A stretch of 64,000 nucleotides of DNA from the NCBI RefSeq assembly GCF_003258515.1, contig NZ_QGEH01000001.1, forward strand, positions 806,001-870,000. The letters run 5' to 3'. A program made the translations under genes and the position numbers. The stretch is from Marinobacter bohaiensis. Lineage in GTDB: Bacteria > Pseudomonadota > Gammaproteobacteria > Pseudomonadales > Oleiphilaceae. Of this stretch, positions 7,642 to 52,664 are shown piece by piece (positions within the stretch are counted from its first letter, which is position 1; every line of letters begins with the position of its first letter). The notes beneath the pieces were generated by a model. The model searched no databases. It saw only the letters and a program-made list of their open reading frames with translations, and was not told where the DNA came from.

Positions 7642-7923
7642 ATGCTCGAACATTACCTCTGCAGTACCCTCCATTTGTCGCCCGGTCACCAACTCCGACC
7701 GGTTGAACCCGAAACCATGATGACCCGTTTGCCGGACGCCCCGGCGGGCAAGTGTCAGCACTTCTGCCTTCGTGACGACAGCAACCGTATCATCGCCCTT
7801 TTCGATGCACGACGGATGGCTGGCGGTTATTTCGGTTACCACAGGTATCACCCGGACGGCACGCACCTGTTGCATCGACTGTTTCGCATGAAGCAGCCGG
7901 TGGAGTATGAATTCCCGGTCTAG
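7642..7923 (+). CDS. Small protein A1 (paralogous FGY family)
   Basis: A 93-residue protein without a known domain. Its second half carries the motif shared with the proteins at 9109 and 9884: F-x-L-R-D-x-x-N-R-I-I-A-L-F-D-A, then GGYFGYHRYHPDG and L-x-x-R. The aromatic FGY turn between two predicted strands suggests a small beta-rich fold. The ATG follows GGAGG at eight bases. It is the first member of an alternating array A1-B1-A2-B2-A3. The N-terminal third is unlike its paralogues, so only the C-terminal core is conserved. Function unknown; no signal peptide or membrane segment. Confidence 0.65.
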   Translation: MLEHYLCSTLHLSPGHQLRPVEPETMMTRLPDAPAGKCQHFCLRDDSNRIIALFDARRMAGGYFGYHRYHPDGTHLLHRLFRMKQPVEYEFPV

Positions 7924-8094
7924 ATCGATCTGGAGATCGGACTGGATAGCGGCCGGTTTTGAGGGGCGACGATGTGTCGGCCCGCTGCCGCCGGTTGATA
8001 TAAAAAGCGCCTGCTCCGGCCGGGTCATTATGTCGGGGCAGTGGTTGAGATCAGGGACGATCTGGAACTCGATTGAACGTTCATAGTGAGTCCT

Positions 8095-8280
8095 ATGCGA
8101 TCCGTGATTCTCGAACATTTCTGTGTACAACTCGTCCAGGAAAAGCGTCAGGACGACGTTCCCCTCTACAGCATTGAGGTGGAAGGCGAAGGCTCGCTCT
8201 ACAGCCATGTCAGCTTCGAGGCTGTCATGCACTATTTTGAGATGCTGGTTCACCCCGCCGATACCGGAACCGTGGCCTGA
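8095..8280 (+). CDS. Small protein B1 (paralogous EVEGEG family)
   Basis: A 61-residue protein, same length as its paralogue at 9578. Both begin MRSV and share LY-x-(I/V)-EVEGEG-(S/T)-LYS, then SF-(E/D)-A, HY-(F/L)-(E/D)-ML and HP near the C-terminus. The start is placed at 8095 rather than at the GTG at 8086 because the DNA around the ATG (ATGCGATCCGT) is conserved between the two copies. It lies 171 bp after A1. No known domain; it looks like a small alpha/beta protein. Two terminator-like hairpins follow at 8386 and 8511. Confidence 0.65.
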   Translation: MRSVILEHFCVQLVQEKRQDDVPLYSIEVEGEGSLYSHVSFEAVMHYFEMLVHPADTGTVA

Positions 8281-44663: not shown

Positions 44664-45584
44664 ATGGCCGTTGTCCTGTCCCTGTTCGTCAAACTCCTGC
44701 CGCTCTACATCACGGTCCTGCTGGGCTGGATCGCCGGGCGCTATCTCGAAGCCAGCGGGCGTCACATCGCCGGCATCATGCTCTACATCGTGACCCCGTC
44801 GGTGATCTTCTCCGGGGTGATGGCCGCGCCGCTGACGCCGGAAGTGCTGCTGATGCCGGCCATCGTGTTCGCGTTCTGCGTGCTGGTCAGCCTGCCGCAC
44901 ATGGCCGTCGGCCGGCGCCTGCTCAAAGACGGCAGCGCCAACATCGTGCCGCTGGCGGTGGGCACCGGCAATACTGGTTACTTCGGCATTCCCGTGGCCT
45001 TGCTGCTGTTCGGGGAAGAGGGCGTGGCGCTCTACATCGTCTGCATGCTGGGCACCACGCTGTTCGAGAATTCGGTGGGCTACTATCTGGCCGGCCGCGG
45101 CCGCTACAGCGCGCGGGACTGCCTGGTCCGGGTGGTCCGGCTGCCGGCGATCTACGCCTTTGCCCTGGGGGTGGTGCTTAACCTGAGTGGCTTTGCCATA
45201 CCGGACGTGTTCGTGCCGCTGTTCGATAACTTGCGCGGCGCCTACAGTATCCTGGGCATGATGATCGTGGGCATGAGCATCCTCAATTTCCGTGGCCTGA
45301 TGGGCAACGTGCGGTTCACCGGGCTGGCGTTCTTCGGCAAGTTCGTGGTCTGGCCGCTGGCGGCCCTGGCGTTCTGGTTTGTCGACAGCCACTGGCTCGG
45401 TTTCTACGATGACGCGGTCTATCGCGCCATCTTCCTGGTATCCATCACGCCCATGGCGGCCAACACCGTGGTCATCGCCACCCTGCTGGATGCCTCGCCC
45501 CGTCAGGCGGCGGGCACCACGCTGCTGAGTACCCTGTTTGCGCTGATCTATATCCCGGTGATGGTGGCGATCTTTCTGAGTTAG
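44664..45584 (+). CDS. AEC family transporter
   Basis: A 306-residue inner-membrane carrier of the auxin efflux carrier family, with about ten hydrophobic segments in two halves. The conserved discontinuous helix of the second half reads [19 protein letters not shown]. Substrates in this family are small carboxylates such as malate or malonate, or are unknown. GAGGAG lies nine bases before the ATG. It is convergent with the photolyase gene and overlaps it by four bases. Confidence 0.85.
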
Positions 45585-47104
45585 TCGAACAGAGACAGCT
45601 GGTTGTCGCCGGCGCCGGCTTTGCCGCGAACCTTCGGGCGGCTCTGGCGGGGTCCCTTGCGGCTGCTGTGGCGTTCGAGCACCCGGTCGGTTTCCTGCTG
45701 CGTGACGTGCTCACGGCGGAATTCGGCCACCGCCAGCCGTGCGCTGCGGGCGGCCAGGTCATGGTCGCACACCGGCTCCGGATAACGCTCGCCCCCGTAG
45801 AGACCGTGCTGATGCGCGGTCATGTGCCAGGGGCTGTGGATGAAGTCGTCGGGCACGCCTTCCAGTTCCGGGATCCAGCGCCGGATGAAGGTGCCCTGCG
45901 GGTCCAGCTTGCGGGACTGCAGTTCCGGGTTGTAGATGCGCAGGGCGTTGATGCCGGTCAGGCCACTCTGCATCTGGGCCTGCGGGTAGTGGATGCCCGC
46001 TTCGAAATCGGTGAACAGGCGCGCCAGGTGCAGGGCCGGATCGCGCCAGTGCAGCCACAACTGGTAGCTGGCGACGGCCATCAGCATGGCGCGCATGCGG
46101 AAGTTGATCCAGCCGGTTGCCTGCAGCGCCCGCATGCAGGCGTCCACCAGCGGCCAGCCGGTTTCGCCCCGGGCCCAGCGGTCCAGCCGTTCCCGGTCGT
46201 TGGGGCCGGACTTCAGGTTCTCCAGCTCGCGATGGATGGCGCGGAATTCCAGCTCCGGCTCGTCCTCCAGCTTCTGGATGAAATGGCAGTGCCAGTGCAG
46301 CCGTGAGCGGAAGCTGCGCAGGCTGCGCTGACGGCGGGGCAGGCTGGACGGGTGCTCGCCGTTGTCGCGGCTGGCCTGATAGATCTGACGCAGGCTCAGC
46401 GTGCCGTAGGCGATGTGCGGGCTTAGCCGGGAGCAACCACTGACGGCGCTGTTGGGGCTGGAGATGTTGTACTGATAGCCGATACAGCGGCGATTGAGAA
46501 AGGATGTGAGTAACCGCTCACCCGCCTCGCTGCCACCGGCCTGGCGGTCCGGGCAGTCGCTTTCGTCGGCGCAGGGCGGTGGGGTCAGATCGAGCGCGCC
46601 CGGCTCGTCGTTGCCCGCGGCCATCAGCCGCTCCGGGCTGACGACCGGTTCGCTCCGCATCAGCCCGTTCCACGCCTGGTCCCAGAGATCCCGGTCCGGC
46701 AGGCGCCGTACCACGCCAAACTGGGACCATTCGCGGAATGCGATGCCGCGTTCCGTGCACCAGTCGATCACCCGCCTGTCGCGCCGGAAAGTCCAGTCGT
46801 TGCCGGTTTCCTCGTGGGCCAGGACCCGTTTGATGCCGTGGGTCTGATGGAGTCGCTCAAAGACCGCCGTCACCTCGCCGCGCTCGACCCGCAGCGGCGC
46901 GCCCAGCCGCGTCAGTTGGCGATGCAGCGATGCCAGACTGTCGGCGATGAAGGCCCACTGGCGCCGGCTGGTGTCGGGCAACTGCCAGTAGTCCGGTTCG
47001 ACCACGTACAGCGGCAAGACCGGCTCGCCGTATTCGGCGGCGGCCGCCAGCGGGGCGTGATCCTGAATCCGCAGGTCGCGCTTGAACCAGACCAGCGTTG
47101 TCAT
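45581..47104 (-). CDS. Cryptochrome/deoxyribodipyrimidine photolyase family protein
   Basis: A 507-residue FAD-binding photolyase/cryptochrome-family protein. The N-terminal antenna-binding Rossmann fold begins [18 protein letters not shown]; the C-terminal FAD domain has [24 protein letters not shown] and [21 protein letters not shown]. This subfamily usually pairs with DUF2256, as here, where the two genes overlap by four bases. Whether it repairs DNA or acts as a photoreceptor is not clear. The start at 47104 replaces the longer frame to 47215 because that is where the protein pattern begins. Confidence 0.88.
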
Positions 47105-47256
47105 GACGCGGTATTCCGCAAGTGGCCGCGTTGGCGACGACAGCGTTCGCTGCAGTAGCGCACGCGCTCCCAGTCCCGCGCCCATTTGCGGCGCCAGGCA
47201 AAGGGGCGCTCGCACACGGGGCAGATTTTCTCAGGCAGATGGGGCTTACTGTGCAT
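47101..47256 (-). CDS. DUF2256 zinc-ribbon protein
   Basis: A 51-residue protein of the DUF2256 family, with four cysteines in two pairs (CPVCERPF and YCSERCRRQ) that should bind zinc. It is often encoded immediately before the cryptochrome-type photolyase and here overlaps its start by four bases, so the two are co-translated. Its role is unknown but probably connected to the photolyase. Confidence 0.88.
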
Positions 47257-47405
47257 CGCAACTAACCTGTGACGACGTATCCTGAAGTGGAACGGTAACC
47301 CGGAATACGCGACGCTGCCCGGTCCGGATTGATCCATTCTGACTGAACTTTCAGGCCGGCAACGGGACTATGGCTGAGAAGGGCGAACAGGCGCGGGGAG
47401 GCGAT

Positions 47406-47963
47406 ATGCGAGGTGTGATTGTCTTGTTCCTGATGTGGGCGCTGCCCTGGACGGGCGAGGCGGCTTTTCGCTGCGGCACCAGCCTGGTCGATGAGGGCGA
47501 CTGGCCGGTCGAGGTCCGCGAGAAATGCGGTGAACCGGATTACGTGGCGATCTACCCCCAGGCGGCGCTGCCCGGCATCGGTATCGTCCAGACCGTCGAG
47601 CACTGGTATTACAACCCGGGACCACGGAGCTTCGTGCGCCGGCTGATTTTCCGCAACGGCAAGCTACGCCAGGAAGAGAGCCTGGGCTACGGTTTCCTGC
47701 CCGGTGCTCCGGGCAACTGCTCGCCGCGGATGCTGCGCGAGGGCATGAACGAGTTCGAGATCGTCCGCCGCTGCGGCGAGCCGCTGTCCAAGCGCGTCGA
47801 GTGGGTTCTGCCCCGGCGTCGCGTGGATCACTACAGCGGGTACTCGGCCTATCCCCAGGAGGAATGGCTGTACGAATTCGGCCCCAACGAGTTCCGCCGC
47901 GTCGTCACCTTCCGCGAAGGCCGTCTCATCCGGGTGGAGACGGCGGGCAAGCCCGGCCAATAG
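47406..47963 (+). CDS. DUF2845 family exported protein
   Basis: A 185-residue protein with a signal peptide (about 1-19, ending TGEAAF) and two DUF2845 repeats. The first repeat begins FRCGTSLVDEGDWPVEVREKCGEP and the second near residue 100 (NEFEIVRRCGEPLSKR), each with the VRxxCGEP pattern. Conserved cysteines suggest a disulfide-stabilised periplasmic protein. Function unknown. GGGGAGGCG precedes the ATG at 47406. It opens a plus-strand pair with the tandem HAD gene 70 bp downstream. Confidence 0.85.
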   Translation: MRGVIVLFLMWALPWTGEAAFRCGTSLVDEGDWPVEVREKCGEPDYVAIYPQAALPGIGIVQTVEHWYYNPGPRSFVRRLIFRNGKLRQEESLGYGFLPGAPGNCSPRMLREGMNEFEIVRRCGEPLSKRVEWVLPRRRVDHYSGYSAYPQEEWLYEFGPNEFRRVVTFREGRLIRVETAGKPGQ

Positions 47964-48033: not shown

Positions 48034-49728
48034 GTGCAGAGCGATGATCGGGGCCTGCATGAGACGGGCCTGACCCTACCCCGCGCCCTGTTGTTCGACT
48101 GGCACGGCACGCTGGTGGATACCCATGACGCTATGTTCAGCGCCATGGAGGAGATGCTGCCGCAGTTGGAGGATCTCGGGTTGGTGGATCAGCTGTTGCC
48201 GGAAGAACAGTGCAACACGCCGGAAGACGCCCGCCTGGTGCGTTACATCCGCATCTTCCGACGCTTGCACCCGCGCATCCTGGCGGAGCGGCGGGTGTCC
48301 CGCACCGACATTTTCAACGCGATCTTCGGCGACAACCGCGACGCCAAGTCGATCGCGCACCACGCCTACAACCAGTGCTACCGCCAGTATTTCGGTCAGG
48401 TGAAGCCGTTTCAGGAAGGGGTGCAGGCTTACATGGAGGCCTGCCGCAAGCTGGGCATCAAGCTGGTGGTGGCCACCAACCGCAACCGCGAGTTCCTCGA
48501 TACCGAGCTGGCCACGCTGGAGGAGGGCCGCTGGCGGGACCTGTTCGATGCCACCGTCTGCGCCGACGACGTGGTGCACTACAAGCCTGACCCGGAGATG
48601 ATCTACAGCGCCGCGCAAAAGCTGGGCATGCCCGTCGGCAAGGACATCTGGTACGTGGGCGACGGCTATACCGATATGGTGACCGCCAACAACGCCGGCG
48701 TGACGCCGATTTTCTACAATGGCGCTGCCTGGGAAACCGAGCGTATCGCCGGCTGGTTCCGGCGCCAGGATCGTCCGGCGCGGGTGCTGGAGAGCTTCGA
48801 GTCGCTGATGGACGAGCTGGCCGCGTTCCCCGGCGATACCTTCGCCTGTGAGGTGGCCGACGTACGCCCACCCGCTTACCCGCCGCCGCAGCCGCCGGAG
48901 CGGCGGGTGGAGCCGGACTGGCACCCGGCCGTCGCCAAGCTGATCCGCCCACAGGTGATCCTGTTCGACTGGCACGCCACGCTGGTGGATACGCTCGACG
49001 CCATGTACCACGCGGTGGACGACATGCTGCCGGAGTTTCACGCGCTGGGTCTGATGGGGCGCATGCTGGAGCCGGAAGACAGCAAGACGCCGGAAGACGC
49101 CAAGCTGGTGGCCTACGTACGGGAGTTCGCGCGCCTGCATCCCAAGGTACGTGCTGATCGCAAGATCTCCCGCACCGACATTTTCGAGGTGCTGTTCGGT
49201 GAGGACCAGGACGCCAAGGACATCGCCCACGCGGCCTTCAATCGCCACTACCGCAATCACTACGGCACGGTGGACGCGTTCGAGCCCAAAGTGAGCGACA
49301 TGCTGGCCAGTCTCCGCAACCTGGGTATCCGTGTGGGCGTGATCACCAACCGCGATCGCGAGTTCTTCGAACACGAGCTGGCGGCGGTGGAAGGCACTGG
49401 CTGGCGGCACCTGTTTGATACCGAGGTCTGCGGCGACGACACGCCGCTGCGCAAGCCGCATCCGGACCAGTTGATCCTGGCGGCGGAGAAGCTGGACTAC
49501 CCGGTTGGCCCCAGTATCTGGTACGTGGGCGATAGCACCACCGACATCATCGCCGCCAAGCGCGCCGGGGTGACCGGGGTCTTCTTCAACGGCGCCCTGT
49601 GGGACCTGCCCTGGCTGCACAGCATTTTTCCCGGCACCCACGGCCATCCCCACAAGCCGGACGTGGTGGTCAATGATTTCTCGGAATTCTGGGCGCTGGT
49701 GCTGGCCTGCGAGGTGGGGCCGCCGTGA
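48034..49728 (+). CDS. Tandem HAD-superfamily protein with altered motif I
   Basis: A 564-residue protein made of two homologous HAD domains (about 18-270 and 308-560, roughly 50% alike) joined by a Pro-rich linker. Each keeps the cap and core landmarks: RTDIF-(N/E)-x-(I/L)-FG, the motif II TNR, motif III lysine in YKPDP and RKPHP, and motif IV WYVGDGYTD / WYVGDSTTD. Motif I, however, is FDWHGTLVDT and FDWHATLVDT: the nucleophile Asp22/Asp312 is kept but the second aspartate (+2) is His24/His314. In ordinary HAD phosphatases that residue is the general acid. GGGAGAG precedes the GTG start. Internal duplication of a HAD domain is unusual. Confidence 0.82.
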   Translation: MQSDDRGLHETGLTLPRALLFDWHGTLVDTHDAMFSAMEEMLPQLEDLGLVDQLLPEEQCNTPEDARLVRYIRIFRRLHPRILAERRVSRTDIFNAIFGDNRDAKSIAHHAYNQCYRQYFGQVKPFQEGVQAYMEACRKLGIKLVVATNRNREFLDTELATLEEGRWRDLFDATVCADDVVHYKPDPEMIYSAAQKLGMPVGKDIWYVGDGYTDMVTANNAGVTPIFYNGAAWETERIAGWFRRQDRPARVLESFESLMDELAAFPGDTFACEVADVRPPAYPPPQPPERRVEPDWHPAVAKLIRPQVILFDWHATLVDTLDAMYHAVDDMLPEFHALGLMGRMLEPEDSKTPEDAKLVAYVREFARLHPKVRADRKISRTDIFEVLFGEDQDAKDIAHAAFNRHYRNHYGTVDAFEPKVSDMLASLRNLGIRVGVITNRDREFFEHELAAVEGTGWRHLFDTEVCGDDTPLRKPHPDQLILAAEKLDYPVGPSIWYVGDSTTDIIAAKRAGVTGVFFNGALWDLPWLHSIFPGTHGHPHKPDVVVNDFSEFWALVLACEVGPP

Positions 49729-51074: not shown

Positions 51075-52607
51075 TCAGAGCCTGTCCAGATGGGCCAGAA
51101 TCCAGTCCGCCCGTTGCAGGATGGCTTCACGCCGTTCCGGCTTCTGCCGATCCCAGTTGCGGTACATCATGCCCATGCGCGGGTTACTGCGGAACGCCTC
51201 GCGGTGCCGGTCGATAAAGTGCCAGTACAGGGCGTTGAAGGGACAGGCGTCGTCTTCGGTGGCGCGGCTCACATTGTAGCGGCAGTCGCTGCAGTGGTTG
51301 GACATGCGCTGGATGTACTTGCCGCTGGCAGCGTAGGGCTTGGAGCCCAGGTAGCCGCCGTCGGCGTGCATCACCATGCCCAGGGTGTTGGGCAGTTCCA
51401 CCCAGTCGTAGGCGTCGGCGTAGACCGCCAGGTACCAGTCGCAGATGTCCTCCGGTTTGACGCCGGCCAGCAGGGCGAAGTTGCCCGTCACCATCAGCCG
51501 CTGGATGTGGTGGGCGTAGGCGTTGCGCCGGGTGGCGTCGATGGCCTTGTGCATGCAGCGCATGCCGGTGTCCCCGGTCCAGTAGAACCAGGGCAGGTCG
51601 CGGGTGTTGCCGAGTCTGTTTTCAGTGGCGTAGTCGGGCATCAGCAGCCAGTAGATGCCGCGCACGAACTCGCGCCAGCCGATGATCTGACGCACGAACC
51701 CTTCCACCGCGTTGAGCGGCGCCTGGCCGCTGTAGTAGTGCTGGACCGCCGCTTCGCACACGCCCAGCGGGTCGAGCAGGCCGCAGTTGATGTAGGGCGA
51801 AAGCACCGAATGGAACAGCCAGTCCTCGTCGTCGGCCATGGCGTCCTGGTAATCACCGAAGCAGGGCAGGGCGAAGTCGAGAAAGTGGGCCAGGGCTTCT
51901 TCCGCGTCGGCGGCGGTTACCGCGAAGTGGAAATCCTCGGCGCTGCCGAAATGGTCGGCAAACTCGCGCTCCACCAGGTCGATCACCTCGCGGGTGATGG
52001 CGTCCGGGGCCACCCGGAACGGCCCCGGTGCGGGTGGCTTGCCGTTCCATTTCTTGCGGTTGTCGGCGTCGAAGTTCCACTGGTCGCCCTCGGGGCCGCC
52101 CTCCGGCGTCATCAGCAGGCCGGTCTTCTTGCGCATTTCCCGGTAGAAGAACTCCATGCGCAGCTGCTTGCGGCCCTCCGCCCAGCGGGCGAATTCGTCC
52201 TTGGTGGCGATGAAGCGGTCATCGGGGCGGATTTCCACGGGAATTCCCAGTCTCTTATGCCATTGGCAAATATCGTCGTGCAGGCGCCATTCGCCGCACT
52301 CGGTGGTGATCAGTTTGTCCGGACGATGGGCTTCCACCTGTTCGGCCACCACGTCGCGCAGCGAGTCGTGTGAACTGTCCGAATCATAGGCGTGGTAATG
52401 AATGTCCCAGCCGGCATCCTGCAATTCCCGGGCGAAATGCCGCATGGCGCTGAACAGCAGGATGATCTTCTTCTTGTGGTGATTGGTGTAGCTGGCCTCG
52501 TCCCGGACCTCAGCCATGACGATGCGATCCTGCTGCGGGTCGGCATCCTGCAGGGCGCTGATGTCAGGGGTGAGCTGATCGCCCAGGATCAGGATCAGGT
52601 GGCGCAT
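51075..52607 (-). CDS. Fe-S bacterial cryptochrome/(6-4) photolyase (PhrB-like)
   Basis: A 510-residue member of the FeS-BCP/deoxyribodipyrimidine photolyase-related family, founder of the bacterial (6-4) photolyases. The N-terminal antenna domain starts MRHLILILGDQLTPD. Four cysteines at 351, 439, 442 and 455 (CMHKAID; HCSDC; ACPFNALYW) match the 4Fe-4S ligands of PhrB. FAD-binding landmarks include RQIIGWREFVRGIYW and HHIQRLMVTGNFALL. The second ATG (52607) is used because AGGAG lies right at the first. It is distinct from the photolyase at 45581. Confidence 0.94.
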   Translation of the reverse strand: MRHLILILGDQLTPDISALQDADPQQDRIVMAEVRDEASYTNHHKKKIILLFSAMRHFARELQDAGWDIHYHAYDSDSSHDSLRDVVAEQVEAHRPDKLITTECGEWRLHDDICQWHKRLGIPVEIRPDDRFIATKDEFARWAEGRKQLRMEFFYREMRKKTGLLMTPEGGPEGDQWNFDADNRKKWNGKPPAPGPFRVAPDAITREVIDLVEREFADHFGSAEDFHFAVTAADAEEALAHFLDFALPCFGDYQDAMADDEDWLFHSVLSPYINCGLLDPLGVCEAAVQHYYSGQAPLNAVEGFVRQIIGWREFVRGIYWLLMPDYATENRLGNTRDLPWFYWTGDTGMRCMHKAIDATRRNAYAHHIQRLMVTGNFALLAGVKPEDICDWYLAVYADAYDWVELPNTLGMVMHADGGYLGSKPYAASGKYIQRMSNHCSDCRYNVSRATEDDACPFNALYWHFIDRHREAFRSNPRMGMMYRNWDRQKPERREAILQRADWILAHLDRL

Positions 52608-52664
52608 GGACATCTCCTTTCGATTCGCCTTTGAGTACGCCCGAAAGGCCTTTCCGGTTCAGGG

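Follow-up and report, generated by a model that had tools for sequence, protein, structure and literature searches.

What chemistry does a HAD protein carry out when a histidine stands where the phosphatases of the superfamily have an aspartate, and why would such a protein carry the altered site twice? The question is raised by an open reading frame at 48034-49728 (+) of the window, the whole 64,000-nucleotide stretch of DNA analysed. It encodes a tandem DWH-type HAD protein of 564 aa from a GTG start preceded by GGGAGAG. The host genome is 4.76 Mb and the nearest named homologues are those of Marinobacter. HAD phosphatases use the second Asp of motif I (position +2 from the nucleophile) as their general acid/base (PMC8069645, PMC12715507), and this residue comes close to defining them (PMC8069645).

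Two HAD domains in one protein

The protein consists of two C1-cap HAD domains, residues 17-270 and 307-560, joined by a linker (Table 1). The sequence-only reading of this DNA had placed the domains at residues 18-270 and 308-560, right to within one or two residues, and had described an internal HAD repeat with DWH(G/A)T in both copies and motifs II-IV kept, a description confirmed by the alignment of the halves and by the homologues. When the protein was split at 286 and residues 13-275 were aligned with C-half residues 18-277, 121 of 264 positions were identical (46 %), and the E value of 7e-86 indicates that the repeat is not due to chance.

The protein belongs to subfamily IA (C1 cap) of the HAD superfamily by profile cut-offs (PF13419/PF00702 and TIGR01549), motifs and fold. 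The two domains score 79.4 and 85.7 bits with Pfam HAD_2 (PF13419, cut-off 23.8) and 44.1 and 38.4 bits with TIGR01549 (cut-off 23.3). The AlphaFold models are of high confidence, with a pLDDT of 89 and a pTM of 0.82 for the tandem protein and of 94 and 0.90 for the C domain. In the C-domain model, helices 25-110 lie between strands 12-16 and 137-141, giving a Rossmann-like core whose helical cap is inserted between motif I and motif II. The tandem protein is a variant of the known HAD superfamily, not a new kind of system.

The linker contains a conserved E-x-D-W-H-P stretch (residues 293-298, 48910-48927), a third D-W-H located outside any HAD motif; its His297 is His in 96 of 97 tandem homologues.

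Table 1. Features of the tandem HAD gene, in window coordinates; fractions refer to distinct tandem homologues
Feature	Coordinates	Strand	Support
N-terminal HAD domain, residues 17-270 (core + C1 cap)	48082..48843	+	Pfam HAD_2/Hydrolase, AlphaFold model
Motif I, N half: F-D22-W-H24-G-T26 (D22-T26)	48097..48111	+	H24 His in 97/97
H24 codon CAC	48103-48105	+	
Cap Arg90 of S-R-T-D-I-F motif	48301..48303	+	97/97
Motif II, N half: T148-N149-R150	48475..48483	+	97/97
Motif III, N half: K184	48583..48585	+	97/97
Motif IV, N half: D210...D214	48661..48675	+	97/97 each
Pro-rich linker, residues 271-306	48844..48951	+	
C-terminal HAD domain, residues 307-560 (the half that evolves more slowly)	48952..49713	+	Pfam, AlphaFold models, identity comparison
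Motif I, C half: F-D312-W-H314-A-T316 (D312-T316)	48967..48981	+	H314 His in 97/97
H314 codon CAC	48973-48975	+	
Cap Arg380 of S-R-T-D-I-F motif	49171..49173	+	alignment of family domains and tandem homologues
Motif II, C half: T438-N439-R440	49345..49353	+	97/97
Motif III, C half: K474	49453..49455	+	97/97
Motif IV, C half: D500...D504	49531..49545	+	D500 96/97 (one Glu), D504 97/97

Conservation and origin of the histidine

We collected 106 full-length tandem homologues, 97 of which are distinct. Both H24 and H314 are His in all 97. With a single exception, one D500E, the two halves also retain the nucleophile Asp, the motif II Thr, the motif III Lys and the motif IV acids. A profile with motif I masked was then searched against all fetched loci. 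It returned 417 domain hits, of which 370 score at least 300 bits, one partial hit (L034) scores 188 and the remainder fall below 100, a gap that separates the DWH family from all other HADs. Counting distinct sequences and not independent genomes (the loci were fetched using family queries and some species are duplicated), 247 of the 249 domains scoring at least 200 bits have His at +2, and the other two have no motif I region, one being at a contig end (L033) and one fused or truncated (L034). This result rules out the suspicion that the His is a sequencing or alignment artefact absent from relatives, and it places the family outside the canonical HAD phosphatases as defined by Asp at +2.

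The His codon in the 247 distinct domains is CAC in 162 cases and CAT in 85, and the use of both indicates that the amino acid, not the DNA, is selected. The family alignment A2 was built partly from loci matched by a DWH-containing DNA pattern, and the later searches took their first look with A2 unmasked, which might in principle have let a member without His escape. Speaking against such a gap, the single-domain profile found the DWH family in 17 of 369 genomes of the class (presumably Gammaproteobacteria, following the taxonomy of Marinobacter), all at E 6e-109 or better, and nothing more down to 1e-22.

Other residues that are invariant and specific to the family lie in the cap or close to motif II: R86, R90, H109, R150 and R152, the Arg150 position being Lys in the relatives examined. 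Cap Arg90 is invariant in 247/247 family domains; such 247/247 figures come from alignment rows chosen by DWH and are no evidence for the His itself, unlike the masked-profile count. The other HAD genes of the host genome with a readable motif I have DLDGT, DWDGT, DMDGT or DRDGV, plus one DAFGV. The last (L273) has Phe at +2 (FDAFGV) and lies outside the DWH family. Judged by these comparisons, the His at +2 is real, old and under purifying selection.

Was the change made once and then duplicated? It had been suggested that the substitution, being common to both copies, is older than the duplication, and a phylogeny of single versus tandem DWH proteins had been named as the way to check this. 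In our tree the His family forms one clade against other HADs (SH-aLRT 97), and in a smaller tree, where 14 near-duplicate family rows were dropped and 5 of 25 outgroup rows kept, it is separated 100/100 from five DWD rows. The N halves form one clade that includes the N half of the distant genome G382 (97/85), and the C halves form another (65/85 with G382, 100/99 without). Both half clades lie within the His family, and the trees do not fix the exact order of N, C and single-domain lineages near the base. Since the single-domain members all carry His and lie outside both half clades, the phylogeny places the His first and the fusion later, in agreement with the suggestion; the fusion probably happened once.

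The closest non-His sequences by profile score are HADs with a DWDNT motif I (L178-L182, L184-L186, L188, L194, L195 and L197; two of these 12 have scores in another range, and the L183 row is of the DLD type). They come mostly from other classes of the phylum, and from this and the style of the sequences we take them to be alphaproteobacterial. In 12 of 12 rows they share with the DWH family the Trp after the nucleophile together with Ser89, Glu158, Trp167 and Trp206 (N-half numbers), and these last four residues are largely missing from 13 DLD-type rows. Their cap stretch R..RS.RDSF...FG resembles the R..SRTDIF..FG of the DWH family. They differ in having Asp at +2, a smaller cap in which the D65-R86 region is absent, and a single domain. 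A change from D to H takes one base (GAY to CAY). The sister relation of DWH and DWD proteins is read from profile scores and shared residues, and is of a kind that an outgroup-rooted tree cannot show.

Distribution and genomic setting

A phylum-wide draw found the DWH family in 5 of 398 genomes, all from the same order as the window. By order, the family is present in 31 of 85 genomes of one other order, 7 of 9 of another, and 3/3 and 1/1 genomes of two very small orders. Outside Marinobacter and its relatives, most members are single-domain, His-bearing proteins of other Gammaproteobacteria. The full-length tandem is found in 26 of the 58 relatives searched (host genome counted), is in pieces in two more, and is also present in the more distant G382 (L118/L160).

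In one draft genome (L034, 1098-2139) the tandem gene is fragmented: the beginning of an N half overlaps, out of frame, a shorter ORF that ends like a C half. Perhaps the assembly is wrong here or the two repeats have recombined. Another genome (G269) has two unlinked, diverged single-domain DWH genes (L117 and L127).

We found no family member on plasmids (63 records matched, all below 60 % identity, the best row at 28.7 %), on phages (8 matching records, all ~26 %) or on viral contigs, where none matched, and a mobile or viral origin was rejected on these grounds.

The genes around tandem members and around single-domain ones were clustered in three rounds without yielding a conserved neighbour, and the neighbourhood was dropped as a clue to the substrate. 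In the window the tandem gene sits between a DNA photolyase gene (45581-47215 (-)) and a photolyase-related (DPRP) gene (51075-52613 (-)), and a HemN-like radical SAM gene lies at 52631. Among the 79 loci spanning at least 13 kb, photolyase lies within 6 kb of the tandem gene in 28, DPRP in 38 and HemN in 38. For the non-Marinobacter loci (16 inspected, 15 with data), these genes are seen only at L067 (Tamilnaduibacter), and the strands differ; we therefore read the proximity as genus synteny of Marinobacter. Upstream and co-directional is a DUF2845 gene (47370-47963 (+), two stretches), which accompanies the HAD gene in 7 of the 79 loci.

A different arrangement is seen in one gammaproteobacterial family (L203, at 7721-8215, L206 and L208), where a single-domain DWH gene overlaps the end of a putative dihydrofolate reductase gene by 4 bases. 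A putative thymidylate synthase gene lies upstream in two of the three, where the contig reaches; both enzyme names are read from sequence and are not profile-based. Elsewhere the dihydrofolate reductase arrangement occurs only at L132, more loosely.

Reaction at the DWH sites

The best explanation, to which we give about an even chance (roughly 0.5), is that the protein is a stand-alone Mg2+-dependent C1-cap (subfamily IA) phosphohydrolase made of two fused domains, both catalytically equipped. Asp22/Asp312 would attack a small phosphorylated metabolite at its phosphoryl group to form a phospho-aspartate. His24/His314, replacing the usual Asp, would protonate the leaving group and would then activate the water that releases phosphate. 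The enlarged cap with the invariant Arg90/Arg380 and His109/His399 would close over the site and select the substrate. Both sites would turn over, with the slower C half retaining the ancestral specificity and the faster N half representing a diverged second site.

With the nucleophile, Thr, Lys and metal ligands kept, the phosphoryl-transfer and Mg machinery is intact. Since the other residues of Mg-dependent catalysis are kept and a proton-shuttling residue takes the place of the Asp, a phosphohydrolase using His would be the simplest reading. The family-specific Arg and His invariants of the cap and motif II region suggest a defined, probably anionic substrate. Also in favour are the C1-cap structure, which matches mostly phosphatases, the best sequence profiles, which are phosphoglycolate phosphatases though under cut-off, and the nearest non-His relatives, which are canonical-looking DWDNT proteins. 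Counting against are the closest solved structure, 3kzx, which has Tyr at +2, and the absence of a passed profile and of a conserved neighbour among those searched.

The 3kzx entry is a HAD-IA hydrolase of Ehrlichia chaffeensis and the best PDB match by sequence (E 2.9e-21). It resembles the DWH family in its D-W-x motif I with no Asp at +2 and differs in its Tyr (FDWYNTL) and single domain. Among the matches listed by VIA-align it also ranks first (Z 21.7, rmsd 5.5, 197 aligned), followed within about 2.5 Z by dehalogenases, phosphoglycolate phosphatases, the MtlD phosphatase (the phosphatases at Z about 20) and phosphonatase, where Z values within 1 are tied. Phosphonatase and dehalogenase also fit the fold, at Z about 19-21. 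With Foldseek the top entries among the matches listed are CbbY and phosphoglycolate phosphatase; for both programs, families beyond the matches listed may fit as well. Phosphatases, dehalogenases and phosphonatase score alike, and the fold therefore does not decide the chemistry.

Neither half passes any curated single-enzyme profile. The best-scoring ones are phosphoglycolate phosphatases (TIGR01449, PRK13222), all under cut-off, with 61.2 and 89.2 bits against 180 for TIGR01449; these enzymes have the same C1-cap fold, and the DWH family is without their canonical +2 Asp. An annotation is thereby corrected: the profile hits hint at phosphoglycolate phosphatase, yet the protein does not qualify.

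One alternative is a phosphoryl-transfer enzyme in which the His is not an acid/base. The phospho-aspartate could be long-lived and hand its phosphate to another acceptor, as in a mutase or phosphotransferase. Alternatively, the leaving group could be so good that no acid is required (acyl-, enol- or aryl phosphate, anhydride), and the His would help to bind the substrate. The intact phosphoryl-transfer residues, together with a +2 carboxylate that is invariantly gone, fit this idea, as does the alignment of TIGR01990 (beta-phosphoglucomutase), which begins with its position 45 on residue 88, at the S-R-T-D loop. In beta-phosphoglucomutase this is the place of the substrate loop, which contains Arg49. 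However, the N half reaches only 31.7 bits with TIGR01990 against a cut-off of 189.4, the C half is not among the matches listed, and beta-phosphoglucomutase itself retains the +2 Asp. We consider this alternative somewhat unlikely.

It is also conceivable, and compatible with the other readings, that catalysis is confined to one half while its partner has a regulatory or structural role. The N halves indeed diverge faster, with a mean identity of 0.61 compared to 0.72 for the C halves and a lower value in 151 of 153 pairs (18 tandem proteins). The active-site residues are nevertheless all kept in the N halves (97/97), and we regard such a division as unlikely.

The sequence-only reading had also raised a non-phosphatase activity, considered here as hydrolysis of C-P, C-halogen or C-N bonds, from the observation that dehalogenases and phosphonatases lack the +2 Asp. 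The observation is borne out by the alignments (DAYGT in haloacid dehalogenase IVA, with Tyr at +2, and DWAGT in phosphonatase, with Ala), and both enzymes are among the structural matches. The activity itself fares less well. Phosphonoacetaldehyde hydrolase (phosphonatase) shares the DW-x-GT motif I and the C1 cap and can be aligned over residues 17-225, but the halves score 50.1 and 49 bits with TIGR01422 against a cut-off of 220, which nothing in the host genome passes. For the cap lysine of phosphonatase the DWH family offers no conserved equivalent: no candidate for a Schiff-base Lys was found among the columns at least 95 % conserved in 247 domains, where the only Lys is K184/K474, although the pairwise alignment is weak in that region. 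L-2-haloacid dehalogenase has the same fold, but TIGR01428 gives 44.7 and 32.5 bits against 125.4, and motif IV of dehalogenase IVA is without the first, metal-binding acid, whereas the DWH family keeps GDxxxD. From these comparisons the phosphonatase and dehalogenase readings appear less likely than a phosphohydrolase, and we judge a non-phosphatase hydrolase improbable.

Pseudoenzymes usually lose the nucleophile, Lys and motif IV acids. A catalytically dead HAD serving as a binding or scaffold protein is highly improbable here, the nucleophile, Lys and motif IV acids being invariant or nearly so, even though P. aeruginosa PA2803 (PcrP) is described in PMC12632274 as a HAD without catalytic residues that has a non-catalytic function.

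A search of the open-licence PMC literature turned up neither a HAD carrying His at +2 nor comparable tandem HAD domains, and the DWH family is undescribed within the searchable papers of that collection. We tentatively propose that a gammaproteobacterial clade of HADs has permanently swapped its carboxylate acid/base for an imidazole and, with the enlarged cap and Arg90, His109 and Arg150, represents a distinct catalytic type. The Marinobacter lineage would have fused two such sites whose specificities are diverging, maybe acting on the same substrate or catalysing consecutive steps. A large natural His clade whose nearest-known relatives are DWD proteins one base change away would offer a testable switch of the acid/base, and perhaps a switch of the reaction.
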